From NCBI RefSeq assembly GCF_017569225.1, contig NZ_CP071868.1, positions 2,356,001-2,420,000 of the forward strand: DNA of 64,000 nucleotides. The letters are read 5' to 3'. The position numbers and the translations under genes are program-made. The DNA is from Pengzhenrongella sicca (GTDB lineage Bacteria; Actinomycetota; Actinomycetes; Actinomycetales; Cellulomonadaceae). This document shows positions 6,838 to 15,316 of the stretch, in pieces; position 1 is the first letter of the stretch; each line of letters begins with the position of its first letter. The notes below the pieces were generated by a model that worked only from the letters and a program-made list of their open reading frames with translations, was not told where the DNA came from and did not search any database.

Positions 6838-7698
6838 GTGCCCCCAGCCCATCGCCTGATCATCTGCACCGACGCGAAGAACGAGGCCGATGACCAGTTC
6901 GCGATCGTCCACGCGCTGCTGACCAGCACGCTCGACGTGCGCGGCATCGTCCCCTCGCACTTCGGGCGCCCCGGCTCGATGGTCGCCTCGCGCGAGGAGG
7001 TGCACCTCCTGCTCGAACTGCTGGGCACCGCCGTGGTGGTGGCGGACGGCTCGCCGCACGCGTTACCGGCTGCCGAGACGCCGGTGCCGTCTGCGGGGGC
7101 CCGCCTCATCGTCGCGCAGGCGCGCGCGGAGTCGAGCCGCCTCTACGTCGCCGTCCTCGGGCCGCTCACGGACGTCGCCTCCGCGATCCTGGCCGAGCCG
7201 TCGCTGCGCGAGCGCGACGTCGTCGTGGTGTGGGTCGGCGGGCCGCCGTACGAGGGCGTCCCGGCGTACGCCCCAGAGTTCAACCTCATCAACGACGTCG
7301 CGGCGGCCAACGTGGTGCTCCAGTCGGGCCTCGAGGTGTGGCAGATCCCGATGCCGGTGTACACGATGGTCGGCGTCGGGCACGCCGAGCTCGAGGAGCG
7401 GCTGCGCGGGACCGGACCGGTCGGGGACTACCTCGTGGACCAGCTCGTCGCCTTCAACGCGACGGTGGACTACGGACCGATGGACTTCCGTTCGCTGGGC
7501 GACAGCCCGGCCATCGGCGCCGTGATGAACCCGGCGGCCGGCCGGTGGAGCATCCGCGCGGCCCCGCGCTTCACGGCCACCGGCGAGCTCGCCGCGGGCG
7601 ACCCGGGCCGGACCGTGCGCGTGTGCGAGTCGTTCGACACGCGATGGCTCCTCGAGGACATGTTCGCCAAGCTGCGGTCGGCTGAACCCCGGTCATGA
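6838..7698 (+). CDS. Nucleoside hydrolase-like protein
   Basis: About 286 residues of the inosine/uridine-preferring nucleoside hydrolase fold, cytoplasmic. The N-terminal calcium-site motif reads DAKNEADDQ, compared with DTDPGxDD in classical members. The later EFNLINDVAAANVVL matches the E-x-N-x3-D motif that binds ribose. Such enzymes cleave the N-glycosidic bond of nucleosides, and substrates of divergent members are often unknown. GTG 6838 follows AGAAGG by nine bases; a TTG nine bases upstream is an alternative start. It stands just ahead of an ABC sugar-import operon, separated by 143 bases that hold an operator candidate. It may belong to the same pathway but is not clearly in the same transcript. 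Confidence 0.8.
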   Translation: MPPAHRLIICTDAKNEADDQFAIVHALLTSTLDVRGIVPSHFGRPGSMVASREEVHLLLELLGTAVVVADGSPHALPAAETPVPSAGARLIVAQARAESSRLYVAVLGPLTDVASAILAEPSLRERDVVVVWVGGPPYEGVPAYAPEFNLINDVAAANVVLQSGLEVWQIPMPVYTMVGVGHAELEERLRGTGPVGDYLVDQLVAFNATVDYGPMDFRSLGDSPAIGAVMNPAAGRWSIRAAPRFTATGELAAGDPGRTVRVCESFDTRWLLEDMFAKLRSAEPRS

Positions 7699-7757
7699 CG
7701 TCGCGCGCCGGCGCCCTGACCGGCGCGCAGGCACGGCGACGCCGCCCTATTGGTGAA

Positions 7758-7773
7758 ACATCACATGTATGAT
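7758..7773. promoter_or_regulatory. Candidate GntR/FCD operator, site 1
   Basis: ACATCACATGTATGAT upstream of the sugar-binding protein gene shares 12 of 16 bases with the reverse complement of a site at 14088-14103 next to the GntR-type regulator. It contains the palindrome ACATGT and outer ATCA/TGAT arms. These two sites are the only close copies I noticed. Confidence 0.6.
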
Positions 7774-7841
7774 CTACTGATCCTGCTCGTCCCCGAGCGA
7801 GCCATCGCCAGCGTTGTCGATCAGACGAAGGATTGGGACAC

Positions 7842-9215
7842 ATGCTCTCAGTGCACCGAACGGCGATCACGAAGCCGTCGCAACGACTCTTCCTGACTGC
7901 GACTGTCGCAGCAGCCGCCCTCGCCCTCACCGCCTGCTCCTCCGGCGGCGATGCGGGCGATAGCGGATCGACCTCGGAGTTCGGCTTCGCGGCGGCGACG
8001 CAGGAGGACGGCAGCACCATCACCGTCTGGGTCGACGCCTCCCGCGAACCCGCCGCGGACGCCTTCATCGCGGCCCACCCGGACACTCCGATCAAGGTCG
8101 AGACCTACGACGGCGGCGCGAACGGCTCCGGCTCGTTCCAGACGAAGATCACTGCCTTCGACCAGGCGGGCGACGGCTGGCCCGACGTGGTCTTCTCGAC
8201 CCAGAACAACGACGCCGCCTGGGCGAGCCAGGGCGAGGATCCGTTCGCGGCCCAGCTGAACAACGGGTACGTCGACCAGTCCTTCCTGGACGGGTTCACC
8301 GAGGGCGCGCTCGCCCCCGTGACGATCGACGACACGGTGTACGGGCTGCGCAACGACCTCGCACCCACGGTGACCTGGTACGACCAGAGCCTGTTGGACC
8401 AGTTCGGCTACACGCTGCCGACGACCTGGGAGGAGTACGAGGCCCTCGGGCTGAAGGTCGCGGCCGAGCACCCGGGGTACATCATCGGCTCGGTCGGCGA
8501 CGCGTGGGCCCCCGAGGTCTACTTCTGGGGAGCCCAAGCGCCGGTCAACGTCGTCACCGGCTCCGACGAGTTCAGCACCGACACCTCCGACCCGAAGTCC
8601 GTCGCGATCGCCGAGATCATCGACAACCTGATCGACGCCGGGTCCCTCGTCCAGGACAGCGTGTTCAGCCCGGACTTCGTGACGAAGTACACGGGCAAGG
8701 TCCTGCTCCTGCCCGGGCCGGTGTGGTTCTCGGGCGCGTTGTTCCAGAACGCGGACTCCCTCAACTCCGCGGCCGGCACCATCGGCGCCGGCCTGCCGCT
8801 CGCGTGGGACGGTGACGAGGCCGTCGCCGGCAACGTCGGCGGCGGCACGTGGTTCGTCTCGAGCCACTCGAAGAACCTCGCGGCGGCCAAGGAGTTCCTC
8901 GAGTTCGTCACGAGCTCCGACGAGTACCAGGTCGAGCTCGCCCCCGGGCTGCCCGCCTACACCGCCGCCGCAGACAAGTGGCTCGTGAAGCAGGGGGAGA
9001 GCAACTTCTTCACCGGGGACTTCGCCCCGAACCTGACCACCGCGGCCAGCTCGGTCTGGGACGGCTGGGGCTACCCGAAGTTCAGCCAGGAGTCCGTGTG
9101 GGCGAAGACCGTGACGCCGGACCTCGCCAGCGGCACGAGCCTCGTCGATCTCCTCCCGGCGTGGCAGACGGCCCTCGAGAACGAGGCTCAGGTCAACGGC
9201 TACACGGTGAAGTGA
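7842..9215 (+). CDS. ABC transporter sugar-binding lipoprotein
   Basis: A 457-residue extracellular solute-binding protein (family 1, carbohydrate type). It has a Sec signal and the lipobox LTAC with the lipid-bearing Cys32. The mature part begins with a Ser/Gly/Asp linker and then the ITVWVDASREPAADAF strand typical of sugar-binding clusters. The ATG follows GAAGGA by nine bases. It is the first gene of a six-gene run with two permeases, mutarotase, lactonase and aldose dehydrogenase. No ATPase gene is present, so a shared MsiK-type ATPase elsewhere is likely. An operator candidate lies about 70 bases upstream. The ligand is probably the sugar degraded by the neighbours. Confidence 0.93.
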   Translation: MLSVHRTAITKPSQRLFLTATVAAAALALTACSSGGDAGDSGSTSEFGFAAATQEDGSTITVWVDASREPAADAFIAAHPDTPIKVETYDGGANGSGSFQTKITAFDQAGDGWPDVVFSTQNNDAAWASQGEDPFAAQLNNGYVDQSFLDGFTEGALAPVTIDDTVYGLRNDLAPTVTWYDQSLLDQFGYTLPTTWEEYEALGLKVAAEHPGYIIGSVGDAWAPEVYFWGAQAPVNVVTGSDEFSTDTSDPKSVAIAEIIDNLIDAGSLVQDSVFSPDFVTKYTGKVLLLPGPVWFSGALFQNADSLNSAAGTIGAGLPLAWDGDEAVAGNVGGGTWFVSSHSKNLAAAKEFLEFVTSSDEYQVELAPGLPAYTAAADKWLVKQGESNFFTGDFAPNLTTAASSVWDGWGYPKFSQESVWAKTVTPDLASGTSLVDLLPAWQTALENEAQVNGYTVK

Positions 9216-9217
9216 CC

Positions 9218-10162
9218 GTGACCCTCGCCCCACCAGCCCCGCCGGTCGTCGGCTCCGTACGGAGCCGACGGCCGGGCAGGCGGCCGAAGCGGCCGGTGGC
9301 CACCGGCCAGCAGGCCCGGATGTCGTACGTCTTCGTCTCCGGGTACACCGTGCTCGCCGTGGCGTTCGGGCTCGTCCCGACGCTGTATGCGCTCTACCTC
9401 TCCGTGATGCGGGACGGCCGGTTCGTCGGGGTCGACAACTTCGTGCGGGTCGTCGGCGACTTCCGCTTCCTGCCCGCGGTCCAGCACGTTGCCCTGTTCG
9501 TCGCGATCTGGCTGACCTGCCTGCTGGCATTCGTCGTCGTGCTGGCGCTCGTCGTGCACTCGATCGGCCAACGCTGGCTGAGCTCGAGCATCCGGTTCAT
9601 CTACTACATCCCGGGTGCGCTGGCGGGCGCGTCGAGCGTGGTGCTGTGGCTGTTCCTGCTCGATCCGACGGTCAGCCCGGTCTCCGCCGTGCTGCACCTG
9701 TTCGGGCTCGAGACGTTTGTCCAGACGGTCTCGCCCGGCAACCTCCCCGTCATCTTCGCCATCATCGCGTTCTGGACGGGCGCGGGCGGCTGGATCGTCG
9801 TCATGTACGGCGCGCTGAACAACATCCCGCGCGAGGTCATGGAAGCCGCCCGCATCGACGGCGCGGGGCCGATCCGGACGGCGCGCCACATCCAGCTCCC
9901 CATGATGCGCAAGTGGATCTCCTACATGGCGATCATGTCGCTCGCCGCGGGCACGCAGCTGTTCGTCGAGCCGCGCGTCCTGTCCCAGGCGAGCAAGGGC
10001 GTCGTGCCCATCGACTACTCGCTGAACCAGCTCGCCTACCTGTACGCCTTCAAGCAGAACGACAACAACGGGTCCGCGGCGATCGCCGTGCTGCTCCTGG
10101 TGGTCTCGCTCGCGCTGAGCATGTTCTTCGTCATCAAGGGTGGTCTCTTTGAACGCGACTGA
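9218..10162 (+). CDS. ABC sugar transporter permease (MalF type)
   Basis: A 314-residue inner-membrane permease with a basic N-terminus, six predicted helices and the cytoplasmic EAA loop (VMEAARIDGAGPIRTARHIQ) that docks the ATPase. The GTG start is two bases after the binding-protein stop. Together with the next gene it forms the channel of a CUT1-type importer. Confidence 0.92.
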   Translation: MTLAPPAPPVVGSVRSRRPGRRPKRPVATGQQARMSYVFVSGYTVLAVAFGLVPTLYALYLSVMRDGRFVGVDNFVRVVGDFRFLPAVQHVALFVAIWLTCLLAFVVVLALVVHSIGQRWLSSSIRFIYYIPGALAGASSVVLWLFLLDPTVSPVSAVLHLFGLETFVQTVSPGNLPVIFAIIAFWTGAGGWIVVMYGALNNIPREVMEAARIDGAGPIRTARHIQLPMMRKWISYMAIMSLAAGTQLFVEPRVLSQASKGVVPIDYSLNQLAYLYAFKQNDNNGSAAIAVLLLVVSLALSMFFVIKGGLFERD

Positions 10163-11054
10163 TCTCGACCGCAGCCGCCACGCGGCGTCTCCCGCCAGGT
10201 GGCTCGGCCGCGCTGCCGTCGTCGCGGGGATCGGCTTCTTCGTGCTGTTCTTCGTCGTGCCGATCATCTGGCTGGTGATCGCTTCGGGGAAGTCGCCCCG
10301 CGACCTCATCACGACCGCCCCGTTCCAGCCCGGCACGTTCGCAGCGTTGGCGGACAACTGGTCGGCCCTGATCGGCTTCCAGGACGGGATCATCTTTACG
10401 TGGCTCGGCAACTCGGCGCTGTACTCGATCGGCGCCCTGGTGTTGACGCTCGTCACCAGCATCCCCGCCGGGTACGCCCTGGCCCTCGGGAACTTTCCGG
10501 GGCGCAAGCCGTTGCTGACGATGACGTTGATCGTCATGCTCATCCCGAACACCGCGCTGGTGCTGCCGATCTTTCTCGAGCTGAGCGCGGTCAACCTGAT
10601 CGGCACGCCGCTGTCGGTGATCCTGCCGTTCTCGTTCTTCCCCTTCGGCGTGTACCTGACCTACATCTACTTCTCGACGAGCATCCCGCGCGACCTGCTG
10701 GCCGCGGCCCGCATCGACGGGTGCGGGGAGCTCGCGGTGTTCGGCAGGATCGCGCTCCCGCTCGCCACGCCCGTGGTCGCGCTGGTGGGCTTCTTCAGCT
10801 TCGTCGCGAACTGGAACAACTACTTCCTGCCCTTCCTCACGGTCCCGGGCACGAAGGCGCCGATCCAGGTCGGCCTGGCGGAGATGCTCTCGAACGTGCC
10901 GGCGTTCAACCCCACGGCCGCGGGCACGACCTCGATCCAGCTGCCCGCGCTCGCGCTCGCGACCCTGGTGTCGGTGGCTCCCGTCATGCTGATCTTCATG
11001 TTCTCGCAGCGATTCCTCGTCTCGGGGCTCACCGCGGGCGGGACGAAGGAGTGA
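10149..11054 (+). CDS. ABC sugar transporter permease (MalG type)
   Basis: About 301 residues, six membrane helices and an EAA loop (LLAAARIDGCGELAVFGRIA). It overlaps the preceding permease gene. TTG 10149 is preferred because AAGGGTGG lies six bases before it; GTG 10140 is the in-frame alternative with its purines too close. It pairs with the MalF-type permease. Confidence 0.9.
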   Translation: MNATDLDRSRHAASPARWLGRAAVVAGIGFFVLFFVVPIIWLVIASGKSPRDLITTAPFQPGTFAALADNWSALIGFQDGIIFTWLGNSALYSIGALVLTLVTSIPAGYALALGNFPGRKPLLTMTLIVMLIPNTALVLPIFLELSAVNLIGTPLSVILPFSFFPFGVYLTYIYFSTSIPRDLLAAARIDGCGELAVFGRIALPLATPVVALVGFFSFVANWNNYFLPFLTVPGTKAPIQVGLAEMLSNVPAFNPTAAGTTSIQLPALALATLVSVAPVMLIFMFSQRFLVSGLTAGGTKE

Positions 11055-11056
11055 CG

Positions 11057-11383
11057 ATGGAGCGGCACGCGATGGTGGTCAACGTCGTCCCCGAGCTGCG
11101 GGAGGAGTATCTGCGCCTGCACTCGGCCGTGTGGCCGCAGGTTGAGGCGACGCTCTCCGCGTGCCACGTCACCAACTACTCCATCTACCTGCTCGAGGGC
11201 ACCTTGTTCGCCTACTACGAGTACGTCGGCACCGATCACGAGGCGGACATGGCCCGAATCGCGGAGGATCCGGTGACCCAGGACTGGTGGACCCGGACCG
11301 ACCCCTGTCAGACCCCGTTCGGCGTCGGAACGACGCCGGGCCAGCGGTGGCGGGACCTGCGCGAGATCTGGCATCTGGCGTGA
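11057..11383 (+). CDS. L-rhamnose/L-fucose mutarotase-type protein
   Basis: A 108-residue protein of the RhaM family, dimeric alpha/beta-barrel enzymes that interconvert anomers of 6-deoxy sugars. The family signatures are visible: EEYLRLHSAVWP with the catalytic His, NYSIYL, FAYYEY, and the QDWWTRTDPCQTPF tail. GAAGGAG precedes the ATG. The product would supply one anomer to the aldose dehydrogenase three genes on. RhaM homologues also occur in L-fucose clusters, so the sugar is not fixed by this gene. Confidence 0.9.
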   Translation: MERHAMVVNVVPELREEYLRLHSAVWPQVEATLSACHVTNYSIYLLEGTLFAYYEYVGTDHEADMARIAEDPVTQDWWTRTDPCQTPFGVGTTPGQRWRDLREIWHLA

Positions 11384-12222
11384 CGCGCGCCCTGCTCGAC
11401 GCCCACCTGCACACCTGGCACCGGGCCACCAACCCGCAACCCTGGATCGACCCGACGACGATGGCCGCGATCGACCGCGACTTCTCGATGGCCCAGGCCG
11501 GCGAGGTGATCGCGGCGCATGGCGGCGTCGGCGGCGTCGTCGTGCAGGCCATCAACAGCCACCGCGAGACGATCGACCTCCTCGCGGCCGCGTCGGCGCG
11601 GGACGGGCTCGCCGTCGTCGGCTGGGTGGACCTCACCGGTGACGTCGCGGCCCAGGTCGACGCGCTCCGCGGCGCCCCGGGCGGGGACGCGCTGGTCGGG
11701 ATCCGGCACCTGGTCCACCTCGAGCCCGACGACGCCTGGCTGCTGCGCGCCGACGTCGCACGCGGGCTCGAGGCCCTCGCCTCGGCCGGGCTCCCGTTCG
11801 ACCTCGTCGTCCGACCGTGGCAGCTCAGGGCCGCCGCGCAGGTCGCGCGCGCCCACCCCGGCGTGCTCCTCGTCCTCGAACATCTCGGCAAGCCCCCGAT
11901 CACCAGCCCCGAGCTCGTCCGCTGGACGACCGAGCTGCAGGCGCTCGCCGGCCACGACAACGTCGTCGCGAAGGTCTCCGGCCTGACGCTCGAGGACGAC
12001 TGGGGGTCGTGGACCGCCGAGCGCCTGCGCCCGGTGCTCGACCACGCACTCGAGACGTTCGGCCCCGACCGGTTGATGTTCGGCTCCGACTGGCCGCTGG
12101 TCGAGCTGACCGGCGGCTACGGGCCCTGGAAGGACGCGTACCTGAGCCTGACCGGCGACCTGTCCCCCGCCGAGCAGGCGGCGCTCGACTCGGGCACCGC
12201 GCGCCGCGCGTACTCGCTGTGA
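11380..12222 (+). CDS. Amidohydrolase-family sugar lactonase
   Basis: A 280-residue metal-dependent hydrolase of the amidohydrolase-2 (COG3618) group, which includes L-fucono-1,5-lactonase. Visible metal and active-site motifs are DAHLHTWH near the N-terminus, LEHLGKP in the middle and MFGSDWPL near the C-terminus. It should open the lactone formed by the aldose dehydrogenase. Its GTG overlaps the mutarotase stop (GTGA) and its stop overlaps the next ATG (TGATG), so three genes are tightly coupled. Confidence 0.88.
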   Translation: MTRALLDAHLHTWHRATNPQPWIDPTTMAAIDRDFSMAQAGEVIAAHGGVGGVVVQAINSHRETIDLLAAASARDGLAVVGWVDLTGDVAAQVDALRGAPGGDALVGIRHLVHLEPDDAWLLRADVARGLEALASAGLPFDLVVRPWQLRAAAQVARAHPGVLLVLEHLGKPPITSPELVRWTTELQALAGHDNVVAKVSGLTLEDDWGSWTAERLRPVLDHALETFGPDRLMFGSDWPLVELTGGYGPWKDAYLSLTGDLSPAEQAALDSGTARRAYSL

Positions 12223-13214
12223 TGCCGGCGAGGCTACGCACCCGGCCCGTGGGCTCGACCGGCCTGCGGGCGACGGAGATCGGATTCGGCGCGGCGAGCC
12301 TCGGGAACTTGTACCGGCGGACGGGCGAGGACGAGGCGGCGAACGCCGTCGCACGCGCGTGGCAGCGCGGTATCCGGTACTTCGACACCGCGCCGCACTA
12401 CGGCCTGGGCCTGTCCGAGCTCCGGCTCGGCCGGGCGCTGGCGGCATACCCGCGGGACGAGTTCGTGGTGTCGACCAAGGTCGGCCGGCTGCTCGAGCCG
12501 AACCCGCGTCCGACCGCCCTGGACACGGACGGCTTCATCGTGCCCGGCGACGTTCATCGGGTCTGGGACTTCTCGCGGGACGGCGTGCGCCGCTCGCTCG
12601 ACGCCTCGCTCGAGCGGCTCGGGCTCGACCATGTCGACATCGTCTACGCGCACGACCCGGATCAGTTCCGCGAGAGCGCGGCCCGCGACGCGCTCGACGC
12701 CCTCGGCGAGCTCCGGGCCGACGGAGTGGTGCGCGCCATCGGCGTCGGGACGAACGTGACTCATCAGCTCGCGGGGCTCTTCGCCGACGGGCTGCTCGAC
12801 GTCGCCATGGTCGCCGGGCGCTACACGCTGATGGACCAGAGCGCGCTCGCCACCGCGCTCGAGCCGGCGCGCAGGGCGGGCGGATCGATCATCGCCGTCG
12901 CCGTCTTCAACTCGGGCCTGCTGAGCACGCCTCGGCCGGCCCCCGAGGCGAAGTACGACTACGGCCGGGCCTCGCCCGAGCTCGTCGCTCGCGCGAACAG
13001 GCTGGCTGACATCTGCGAGTCCCACGGCACGTCGCTGCCGGCCGCAGCCATCGCCTTCCCCCTCCAGCACCCGGCCGTCACGAGCGTAGCGCTGGGGATG
13101 CGCAACGCGGCGCAGGTCGACAGCAACCTCGACCGCTTCGCGAGCCCGGTCCCGCAGGCGCTCTGGACCGAGCTGGTCGACGCCGGGCTGGTCAGTCCCG
13201 AGAGCATCACCTAG
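12222..13214 (+). CDS. Aldo/keto reductase, aldose 1-dehydrogenase type
   Basis: A 330-residue TIM-barrel oxidoreductase that resembles D-threo-aldose/L-fucose 1-dehydrogenases more than general reductases. The tetrad is visible: Asp and Tyr in YFDTAPHYG, Lys in STKVG and His in YAHDPD. It would oxidise the aldose to its lactone with NAD(P). It is the last gene of the operon, and its ATG overlaps the lactonase stop. It ends against the convergent regulator gene, with a hairpin in the 51-base gap. Confidence 0.88.
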   Translation: MPARLRTRPVGSTGLRATEIGFGAASLGNLYRRTGEDEAANAVARAWQRGIRYFDTAPHYGLGLSELRLGRALAAYPRDEFVVSTKVGRLLEPNPRPTALDTDGFIVPGDVHRVWDFSRDGVRRSLDASLERLGLDHVDIVYAHDPDQFRESAARDALDALGELRADGVVRAIGVGTNVTHQLAGLFADGLLDVAMVAGRYTLMDQSALATALEPARRAGGSIIAVAVFNSGLLSTPRPAPEAKYDYGRASPELVARANRLADICESHGTSLPAAAIAFPLQHPAVTSVALGMRNAAQVDSNLDRFASPVPQALWTELVDAGLVSPESIT

Positions 13215-13251
13215 CGGGACGGGCGCAGCACGCTCCGGGAACCGAGGAGCA

Positions 13252-13273
13252 CGGGCTGACGCGGCTCAGCCCG
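13252..13273. terminator. Bidirectional hairpin between convergent genes
   Basis: CGGGCTGA and TCAGCCCG form a perfect 8-bp stem with a six-base loop between the aldo/keto reductase and the GntR gene. There is no T-run; the GntR stop codon is in the stem. Confidence 0.5.
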
Positions 13274-14042
13274 CCGGGCGGGCGCCCCGATGGTCGGGCA
13301 GCCGCCGGCGCTGCCACGCATCGATGATGTGGTCGTTCATGGCGCGTTCGGCGCGGTCGAGATCGCCGTCCTCGATCGCGGCGAAGACGGCCTCGTGCTC
13401 GGCGAGAGTGAACCGGACGTGCTCGTCCGAGGCGATCCCGCGGTAGCGGGTGCTCTCCCGGGCCCGCTCGAACAGGATCCGGGCGATGCTCTCCGCGAGG
13501 CGGTTTCCGGAGATCGCCATGACCATCTCGTGGAATGCGTGATCCGCGGCGTTGAACGCGTCCGGGTCCTCCACCGAGGTCCGCATGAGCGCGGTGGTCC
13601 GGCGCAGCTCGCCGAGCTGGTCCGCGGTCCGGTGGTGCGCCGTCTCGCCGGCCATCGTGGACTCGAGGCGGGCGCGGACGACGCTGAGGTCGTCCAGCAC
13701 GCCAAGGCTGTCGTCGTGAGCGATGAGAGCGGTCAGCACGACCCGGTCGAGGATGTTCCAGGAGCTGGACGGCTCCACGCGCGTGCCCCGGCCCTGGGCG
13801 ACGGTGACCAGGCCTTTCTCCTCGACGCGCTTGACCGACTCGCGCAGCACCGTGCGGCTCACGCCGAACTGCTGGCTGAGCGGGATCTCCGGCGGCAGCA
13901 GGTCCCCGGGAGCGAGCGAGCCGGACACGATGACGTCCACGAGCGCCTCCACGACGGCGACGCCGAGGCGCTTCGCGGGCAGCCGGGTCTCGATCGACAG
14001 GATCCGCGTCGAGGCAGAAGCACTATTGACGTTCGTCACCAT
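13266..14042 (-). CDS. GntR-family (FadR/FCD) regulator
   Basis: A 258-residue regulator with an N-terminal GntR winged helix (GDLLPPEIPLSQQFGVSRTV, then LRESVKRVEEKGLV) and a C-terminal FCD ligand domain. The metal-binding histidines of the FCD fold are suggested by DHAFHEMV and AEHEAVF. FCD proteins typically sense sugar acids or other carboxylates and derepress catabolic genes. It lies between the transport/oxidation operon and the divergent dehydratase gene, and two similar operator candidates flank the regulon. The ATG is six bases after a TAGAAT box, so it is probably leaderless. Likely inducer: the aldonate or keto-deoxy acid of the pathway. Confidence 0.9.
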   Translation of the reverse strand: MVTNVNSASASTRILSIETRLPAKRLGVAVVEALVDVIVSGSLAPGDLLPPEIPLSQQFGVSRTVLRESVKRVEEKGLVTVAQGRGTRVEPSSSWNILDRVVLTALIAHDDSLGVLDDLSVVRARLESTMAGETAHHRTADQLGELRRTTALMRTSVEDPDAFNAADHAFHEMVMAISGNRLAESIARILFERARESTRYRGIASDEHVRFTLAEHEAVFAAIEDGDLDRAERAMNDHIIDAWQRRRLPDHRGARPAG

Positions 14043-14048
14043 GACCGG

Positions 14049-14054
14049 ATTCTA
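14049..14054 (-). promoter_or_regulatory. -10 box, leaderless GntR gene
   Basis: TAGAAT on the minus strand, six bases before the ATG of the regulator. Confidence 0.6.
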
Positions 14055-14087
14055 GCGGAGCGCACTCGAACGTATGACGTCTCACCC

Positions 14088-14103
14088 TCTATACGTGTGA
14101 TGT
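14088..14103. promoter_or_regulatory. Candidate GntR/FCD operator, site 2
   Basis: TCTATACGTGTGATGT, whose reverse complement ACATCACACGTATAGA shares 12 of 16 positions with the site at 7758-7773. It extends into an ATAC-N7-GTAT inverted repeat. It lies in the intergenic region between the regulator and the dehydratase. A related half site (ACGTATGACGT) is just to its left, near 14069-14080. Confidence 0.6.
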
Positions 14104-14176
14104 ATGCTGTTTACGGACCGAAGGACGGATCGACGTCGAGATGCTGTCTCAGTCGTCCGACGACGCGAGGGATGAC

Positions 14177-15316
14177 ATGAAGATCACCGGCTTTCGGCTC
14201 ATCACGACGTATCACCACTGGGGTCGGCCGGTCGGTGACGTGAACGGCTACATCAGCGAGGGCATCACGGAGGTCCCACTCGTGATCCTGGAGACCGACT
14301 CCGGCCTCGAAGGGGTCGGCCTCGGCTCGCACAGCGACATCGCCCGGCTGTTCCCCGCCATCGAGGGCCAGGACCCGCGGGCCACGTCCTCGCTGTACGA
14401 CCGGATGCTCGCGTTCGTCTTCAAGTCCGGCCACGGCGGGGCGACCTTCGGCGGCATCGGCTCGCTCGACATGGCGCTGTGGGACCTCAAGGCCAAGATG
14501 GCGAACGAGCCGTTGTGGCGCACCCTCGGCGCCCGGGACCGGTTCGTCCCCGGGTACGCCTCGGCGCTCGAGATCGCGGTGACGGACGACGACCTCGCGG
14601 CGCTGTACAGCGGCTGGGTCGAGCGCGGATTCACCAGCGCGAAGGTCAAGGGCGGACGGGACCTCGACCACGACCTGGTGCGCCTGAAGGCGGTCCGCGA
14701 GCTCTTCCGCGCGAACACCGCCAAGCCGGCGATGATGTTCGACGCGAACGAGTCCTGGAACCGCAAGCAGGCGATCCGCTACATCTGCGCGCTCGAGGAT
14801 CAGATGGACCTGACCTGGGTCGAGGAGCCGCTGCGCCGCTGGGACGCCGAAGGTCTCGCGCTGGTGTCCCGGTCGGTCCGCGCGTCGATCGCCACGGGCG
14901 AGAACCTGACGGGCCTCGAGCAGTTCCGCCCGCTGCTGGACGCGGGCGCGGTCGACATCGTGCAGACGGGCAGCGTCTGGGGCATCACCCATTTCCTGCG
15001 GGCGGCCACCGTCGCGCACAGCCGAGACCTGCCCATCAGCCCCGTCGGCTACCTGACCAACCCCGTCGCGCACGCCGCCGCGTGCGTGCCCAACCACCTG
15101 TCGACCGAGGTCCAGGACCTCTCCTCGCCCTTCGGGCTCACGGTCGATCAGGTCATCTCCGACGGCGGCATCGTCCTCGGCGACACGCCGGGCATCGGCA
15201 TCGTGATCGACGAGCCCGCCATCGGCGCAGCGCAGGCCAGCTCCGGGTGGAGCACTCCGGCAGGCCCCCACGTCCGCCCCGATCGCGCCGGCCTGCGGCT
15301 CATACCCGAGCAGTAG
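14177..15316 (+). CDS. Enolase-superfamily sugar acid dehydratase
   Basis: A 379-residue mandelate racemase/muconate lactonizing enzyme relative. The K-x-K acid/base motif (AKVKGG) and the three metal ligands are visible (Asp in MMFDANESWN, Glu in TWVEEPL, Glu in ATGENLTG). The usual C-terminal Pro-His motif of fuconate/gluconate dehydratases is replaced by ISPVGYLTNP. The activity is therefore probably dehydration of an aldonate, but specificity is open. The ATG follows GAGGGA. It is divergent from the GntR gene and shares its operator region. It would act after the lactonase. Confidence 0.85.
   Translation: MKITGFRLITTYHHWGRPVGDVNGYISEGITEVPLVILETDSGLEGVGLGSHSDIARLFPAIEGQDPRATSSLYDRMLAFVFKSGHGGATFGGIGSLDMALWDLKAKMANEPLWRTLGARDRFVPGYASALEIAVTDDDLAALYSGWVERGFTSAKVKGGRDLDHDLVRLKAVRELFRANTAKPAMMFDANESWNRKQAIRYICALEDQMDLTWVEEPLRRWDAEGLALVSRSVRASIATGENLTGLEQFRPLLDAGAVDIVQTGSVWGITHFLRAATVAHSRDLPISPVGYLTNPVAHAAACVPNHLSTEVQDLSSPFGLTVDQVISDGGIVLGDTPGIGIVIDEPAIGAAQASSGWSTPAGPHVRPDRAGLRLIPEQ

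Follow-up and report, generated by a model that had tools for sequence, protein, structure and literature searches.

We analyzed a 64-kb stretch of DNA (here termed the window; positions 2,356,001-2,420,000 of the 4.40-Mb single-contig genome of Pengzhenrongella sicca) in which a gene for a nucleoside-hydrolase-fold protein (NH-like) is followed by an operon at 7842-15316. The operon encodes the solute-binding protein (SBP) and two permeases of an ABC importer, a mutarotase, an amidohydrolase, an aldo-keto reductase (AKR), a GntR/FCD regulator, and an enolase-superfamily dehydratase of the mandelate racemase (MR) type. A preliminary description of this DNA had listed these genes, and Pfam and NCBIfam profiles recovered every one of them at or very near the place assigned to it. 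The description had also reported that the cluster holds no aldolase or terminal dehydrogenase, which is correct for the window cluster. Based on comparison of sequences across related genomes, we propose that the operon probably serves, under GntR control, to take up and oxidatively break down a hexose of L-galacto configuration whose C6-hydroxyl is free, L-galactose being the most likely candidate, and that the NH-like gene is not part of it.

Profile and structure matches gave partial guidance on the enzymes. The amidohydrolase scored 168 bits against the fucono-1,5-lactonase model NF052480 (cut-off, 400) and matched PDB entry 4dlf with an E value of 6e-30. For the AKR, the five best relatives of solved structure are all L-galactose dehydrogenases (E values of 1e-28 to 4e-36), yet no family cut-off for that identity was reached despite these matches. 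The best NCBIfam match of the dehydratase is L-talarate/galactarate dehydratase, at 159 bits versus a cut-off of 500. The name “dehydratase” is itself putative, taken from family and context. Its likely start is an ATG near 14177, in agreement with its relatives.

Table 1. Genes and operator-like sites of the P. sicca locus, numbered by position in the window
Feature	Coordinates	Strand	Evidence or remark
Nucleoside-hydrolase-fold protein (NH-like), 286 aa, GTG start	6838..7698	+	PF01156, 66.3 bits (cut-off, 34.2); judged outside operon
Operator-like site ATACATGTGATGT	7758..7770	-	Between NH-like and SBP genes, in SBP promoter region; exact match to ATACRTGTGAYGT
ABC importer solute-binding protein (SBP)	7842..9215	+	PF01547 (SBP_bac_1)
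ABC importer permease 1, start codon uncertain	9248..10162	+	PF00528 (BPD_transp_1), synteny
ABC importer permease 2	10140..11054	+	PF00528 (BPD_transp_1), synteny
RhaM-family sugar mutarotase	11057..11383	+	PF05336, 96.9 bits; TIGR02625, 50 bits (under cut-off of 99.6)
Amidohydrolase, probable aldonolactonase (fuconolactonase-like)	11380..12222	+	PF04909 (Amidohydro_2), 165 bits
Aldo-keto reductase (AKR), probable aldose 1-dehydrogenase, start codon uncertain	12222..13214	+	PF00248 (Aldo_ket_red), 166 bits
GntR/FCD regulator, probable operon regulator	13266..14042	-	PF00392 and PF07729; conserved beside dehydratase gene in relatives
Operator-like site ATACGTGTGATGT	14091..14103	+	Upstream of dehydratase gene; second exact motif match
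Enolase-superfamily (MR-type) acid-sugar dehydratase	14141..15316	+	PF13378 (MR_MLE_C), 154 bits

The NH-like gene and the boundary of the operon

The preliminary description had suggested import of a glycoside or nucleoside, release of its sugar by the NH-like enzyme, and oxidation of that sugar by the operon. We compared gene neighborhoods using the NH-like protein and the dehydratase as queries against 221 genomes of the family and the SBP as a query against 396 of the order; the counts of relatives depend on the genomes searched and the thresholds. Genes outside the window were called on genome stretches with a simple codon-score caller and checked by tblastn. These searches gave 18 orthologous clusters, eight in the family (loci L065-L071 and L082; SBP identity of 67-75%) and 10 in other families (L199-L208; 53-62%). 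The eight share the same importer and dehydratase, and most also have the mutarotase, lactonase, and AKR. The NH-like gene, far from being constantly present in these neighborhoods, was found by tblastn in 0 of 18. Within the family, its two nearest orthologues, at 85% and 56% identity, adjoin other ABC importers without the pathway enzymes, and one of these genomes (G068) carries an NH-like module and an operon-type module on separate contigs. Among 80 NH-like loci (L101-L180), none has the mutarotase, and resemblance to the dehydratase, lactonase, and AKR reaches at best 28%, 39%, and 54% identity, in one case each.

The placement of operator-like sites points the same way. The motif ATACRTGTGAYGT has exactly two matches in the 64 kb, one in front of the SBP gene and one in front of the dehydratase gene (Table 1), and no further site was found there with up to two mismatches. 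The region upstream of the NH-like gene has no site, the best match having six mismatches. At the SBP promoter, the motif is exact in seven of nine clusters, with one mismatch in one more, and in the relatives it lies 84-161 nt before the called start of the SBP gene. At the dehydratase promoter, seven relatives have it with one mismatch. When the whole genome was scanned with a 16-base operator pattern at up to three mismatches, only the two window sites appeared at two or fewer, and the rest equaled a reversed-pattern control. Because the motif itself came from the SBP and dehydratase promoters, it bears on conservation and on absence before the NH-like gene, not on binding. The GntR/FCD protein is the probable regulator of the operon.

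Two observations favor a role for the NH-like enzyme in the pathway. Its gene is on the same strand as the SBP gene with a gap of 143 nt, and its clade often lies near ABC importers, with a CUT1-type permease within four genes at 42 of the 80 loci. However, three independent lines of evidence argue against placing the NH-like protein in the route: its absence from the 18 clusters, the other neighborhoods of its orthologues, including the two modules kept apart in G068, and an operator-like site downstream of the gene with none upstream. The preliminary description had itself named absence from orthologous clusters as a refutation of its proposal, which fails on this point and which as a whole we consider very improbable. 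We judge the NH-like gene to be a bystander with its own history that the operon does not need. No terminator- or promoter-like site was found after the gene. An inverted repeat is visible there, but its folding was no better than that of shuffles (z of -0.08), and this candidate terminator hairpin was not used as evidence.

Downstream enzymes and the proposed route

In most of the 18 clusters, the neighborhood of the SBP gene includes a zinc alcohol dehydrogenase (medium-chain dehydrogenase/reductase [MDR]) and a KduD-like short-chain dehydrogenase/reductase (SDR). These genes usually lie divergently upstream of it, in the place where the window has the NH-like gene; some relatives also have a 2-hydroxyacid dehydrogenase. 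The SDR is closest to KduD (TIGR01832, 322 bits for the SDR of relatives within an overall range of 297-328 bits; cut-off, 338.85). Inside four orthologous clusters (L066, L201, L203, and L208), we identified a 2-keto-3-deoxygluconate (KDG) kinase and a 2-keto-3-deoxy-6-phosphogluconate (KDPG) aldolase. In L066, the aldolase and a PfkB-family KDG-kinase-like gene stand between the dehydratase and AKR genes and are 68% and 72% identical to copies in the P. sicca genome, where both are unlinked to the module and lie at 3.99 Mb.

This KDG hub (~3.987-3.995 Mb) encodes KduI (379 bits; cut-off, 250), a KduD-like SDR, a 2-hydroxyacid dehydrogenase, an MDR, a second SDR, a KDPG aldolase (eda, 221 bits; cut-off, 156), and a KDG kinase. 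The surrounding locus (L100; 3979000-3998900) also has an ABC importer, an FAD oxidoreductase (PF12831), and a glycoside hydrolase (GH) gene of family GH2. The cluster-borne copies of the MDR, second SDR, and 2-hydroxyacid dehydrogenase in L070, L071, and L082 share 62-72% identity with those of the hub. The earlier suggestion that the route draws on a remote enzyme for its completion was right in kind, with the hub at 3.99 Mb and the same gene types in the clusters of relatives.

From the observed gene content, conservation, operator-like sites, and location of the downstream genes, we infer which substrate is used, what each enzyme does and in what order, and that the hub is used together with the operon. 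The sugar would enter through the ABC importer and meet the RhaM-type mutarotase. The AKR would convert it to a lactone, the amidohydrolase would convert the lactone to L-galactonate, and the enolase-superfamily enzyme would dehydrate L-galactonate to 2-keto-3-deoxy-L-galactonate (L-KDGal). This much supports the preliminary description, which had read the importer and RhaM-type mutarotase as serving a non-phosphorylating oxidative opening from aldose to lactone, aldonate, and keto-deoxy acid. C5 is the sole point of difference between L-KDGal and KDG, and it is at this carbon that KduD, as a dehydrogenase, acts on the 2,5-diketo intermediate, which makes the MDR and the SDR a plausible C5 inverter. 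By oxidation and re-reduction, they would take L-KDGal through 2,5-diketo-3-deoxygluconate to KDG. The KDG kinase and KDPG aldolase would then yield pyruvate and glyceraldehyde 3-phosphate via KDPG, and in P. sicca the last enzymes would be supplied by the hub. How bacterial L-KDGal enters central metabolism was left open in a review, which suggested conversion to D-KDGal or D-KDG (PMC11219438).

Flanking GH genes were also inspected. GH141-like genes flank L065, L070, L071, L082, L199, L201, L203, and L204; GH29 flanks L082; GH95 flanks the related dehydratase clusters L083 and L085; and GH42 and GH53 are near L067. GH141, GH95, and GH29 are families with L-fucosidases and L-galactosidases, and their presence points to L-fucose or L-galactose. 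The GH141-like protein, a right-handed beta-helix protein, lies near dehydratase clusters L070, L071, L082, L201, L203, L199, L065, and L086, with 47-83% identity among five compared loci. It is a candidate alpha-L-galactosidase or fucosidase.

The P. sicca genome has a second cluster (L064; 2578500-2598400) with GntR, LacI, GH42, an SBP, two permeases, a paralogue of the dehydratase (67%), a lactonase, and a FucD homologue; further on are an FAH-family gene, a PfkB KDG-kinase-like gene, and a hexulose-phosphate-synthase-like gene. We considered this cluster as the source of the downstream genes and rejected it because it has no SDR/MDR pair. Among the corresponding second clusters of relatives, L072 and L073 have an MDR, and L073 also has an SDR.

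Alternative substrates and step orders

The operon could instead serve plain L-fucose, leading from fuconolactone through fuconate and 2-keto-3-deoxyfuconate to pyruvate and lactaldehyde or lactate, as in Bifidobacterium and Xanthomonas, with the last steps performed by a distant FAH hydrolase or aldolase. The pairing of a RhaM mutarotase with a fuconolactonase-like amidohydrolase fits this pathway, as do the fucosidase-type GHs near related clusters, FucD with FAH in L200, and the FAH-family gene near the second P. sicca cluster. The layout is also similar to that of the Bifidobacterium fum (L-fucose) operon, which has an SBP with two permeases, a mutarotase, an amidohydrolase-type lactonase, a dehydratase, and GH95/GH29 nearby (PMC6817895). 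However, fum has a keto-deoxy-fuconate aldolase and another first dehydrogenase, while the window operon begins with an AKR, has a dehydratase of a different subgroup, and has relatives with KduD, MDR, KDG kinase, and KDPG aldolase. The preliminary description had considered the combination undescribed; its layout has a close counterpart in fum, and it is in the downstream enzymes that it differs. Neither a keto-deoxy-fuconate aldolase nor a dehydrogenase plus FAH hydrolase was found in the window cluster. The dehydratase is not FucD-like, a separate FucD homologue being in another cluster of the genome, and the AKR most closely resembles L-galactose dehydrogenases. KDG kinase and KDPG aldolase within four orthologous clusters also oppose an L-fucose pathway. 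KDG kinase acts at C6, so any pathway that leads to it requires a hydroxyl at that carbon. As 6-deoxy sugars, L-fucose and L-rhamnose have none, and a 6-deoxy acid is not phosphorylatable at C6, which argues against both. Given this, we regard an L-fucose operon as unlikely.

With L-galactose as the substrate, the order of the steps could still be altered. The MDR would oxidize L-galactonate at C5 to D-tagaturonate, the SDR would form D-altronate, and the enolase-type enzyme would give KDG, following the logic of Luteolibacter and Escherichia coli. This order needs the same enzyme classes and is proven, with other enzymes, in the dual L-glucose/L-galactose pathway (lgu) of Luteolibacter LG18 (PMC12632266), which likewise converts L-galactose via KDG and KDPG into pyruvate and glyceraldehyde 3-phosphate. 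Unlike our proposed route, lgu runs via D-tagaturonate and D-altronate, and its KDG kinase can prefer pyrophosphate. However, the SDR is closest to KduD, and the known KduD substrate is a 3-deoxy-2,5-diketo acid, not D-tagaturonate. We find this order quite improbable. The 3,6-anhydro-L-galactose pathway (VejACI; SCO3480/SCO3486 in Streptomyces coelicolor; PMC9706016) also passes through L-KDGal, and its cycloisomerase is a distant homologue of the window dehydratase (5xd9; E value of 2.5e-32). That pathway uses aldehyde dehydrogenase oxidation and cycloisomerization, whereas the operon has an AKR, a lactonase, and a dyad-less MR-type enzyme.

Several points weigh against L-galactose as the substrate and against the use of the hub. 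None of the cluster proteins reached an NCBIfam equivalog cut-off, so family names alone leave the substrate unfixed. The best-known enzymes of GH141, GH95, and GH29 are L-fucosidases. By tblastn, FAH-family genes are present only in L200, L201, and L207 among the 18 relatives; L200 (FucD and FAH) and L201 (FAH) fit an L-fucose branch, and lineages of this type may use both L-fucose and L-galactose. In L202 and L204-L207, the importer and dehydratase are not accompanied by an SDR/MDR set nearby. At the 3.99-Mb hub, no operator was found with up to two mismatches, so its co-regulation with the operon is hypothetical, and the hub genes of P. sicca may serve pectin (KduI/KduD) only.

The dehydratase subgroup and the NH-like clade

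In the dehydratase, K168/K170 (KxK) and the metal ligands D201, E228-E229, and E254 are invariant in 16 sequences. The His-Asp dyad of the mandelate racemase subgroup is absent in all 16 homologues aligned: a two-residue gap relative to FucD and PDB entry 2og9 removes the Asp, and the His position is Val/Ile, within a Pro-Val/Ile pair. The AlphaFold model (pLDDT of 85.7) shows the expected fold, with 2ovl and mandelate racemase as its closest matches (Z of ~41). The FucD homologue at 2.58 Mb is ~25% identical to the window enzyme, which belongs to a subgroup other than FucD, and the window cluster has no FucD-family L-fuconate dehydratase. The dyad-less KxK subgroup, conserved across the 16 sequences, occurs in two cluster types of the P. 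sicca genome. A single-lysine mechanism would be our guess. We tentatively entertain an undescribed L-galactose pathway of Actinomycetota, possible though short of probable, that would combine dyad-less, single-lysine enolase-superfamily dehydration of L-galactonate with redox C5 inversion of L-KDGal to KDG by the MDR and the KduD-like SDR.

The predicted fold of the NH-like protein is that of a nucleoside hydrolase (pLDDT of 92; Z up to 32.6; root mean square deviation of 2.8 over 270 residues to 1mas), and its metal-site aspartates D12, D18, D19, and D222 are invariant in 30 homologues. The inosine-uridine nucleoside hydrolases (RihA and IU-NH) share this fold (Z of 27-33) and the metal-site aspartates. 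Unlike them, the NH-like protein has Gly for the catalytic His, a longer N-terminal loop, and sugar-importer and apiose-type contexts. The loop is two residues longer than DxDPGxDD. The motif of the clade is TDAKNEADDQ. The catalytic (leaving-group) His before the C-terminal Asp is replaced by Gly221, which is invariant in the 30 homologues and aligns with the His of LHDP in 6zk1.

The closest NH-like orthologues (64-85%) have an SBP and two permeases as neighbors, with LacI in most and a GH3 gene in several. Four gene types were looked at across the 80 NH-like loci: a split transketolase, an FGGY kinase, a xylose-isomerase-like protein, and an apiosidase-like GH (PF13204; present at 11 of 80). 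Two or more of the four occur together at 31 of the 80 loci. This gene set resembles the D-apiose transketolase route, with its kinase aplK and transketolases aptA and aptB (PMC13001218). Our literature searches found nothing that links an NH-like enzyme with apiose. The clade is a candidate family of pentofuranoside, perhaps apioside, hydrolases.

Taken together, the claimed link between a nucleoside hydrolase and sugar oxidation falls away, and the conserved module and its relatives predict a complete route from L-galactose to pyruvate. If true, the C5-inversion reading would explain how L-KDGal is fed into the central metabolism of bacteria. These data also point to a dehydratase subgroup that lacks the catalytic dyad expected from textbooks; this dyad-less dehydratase and the His-less NH-fold clade are more unusual than the operon itself.

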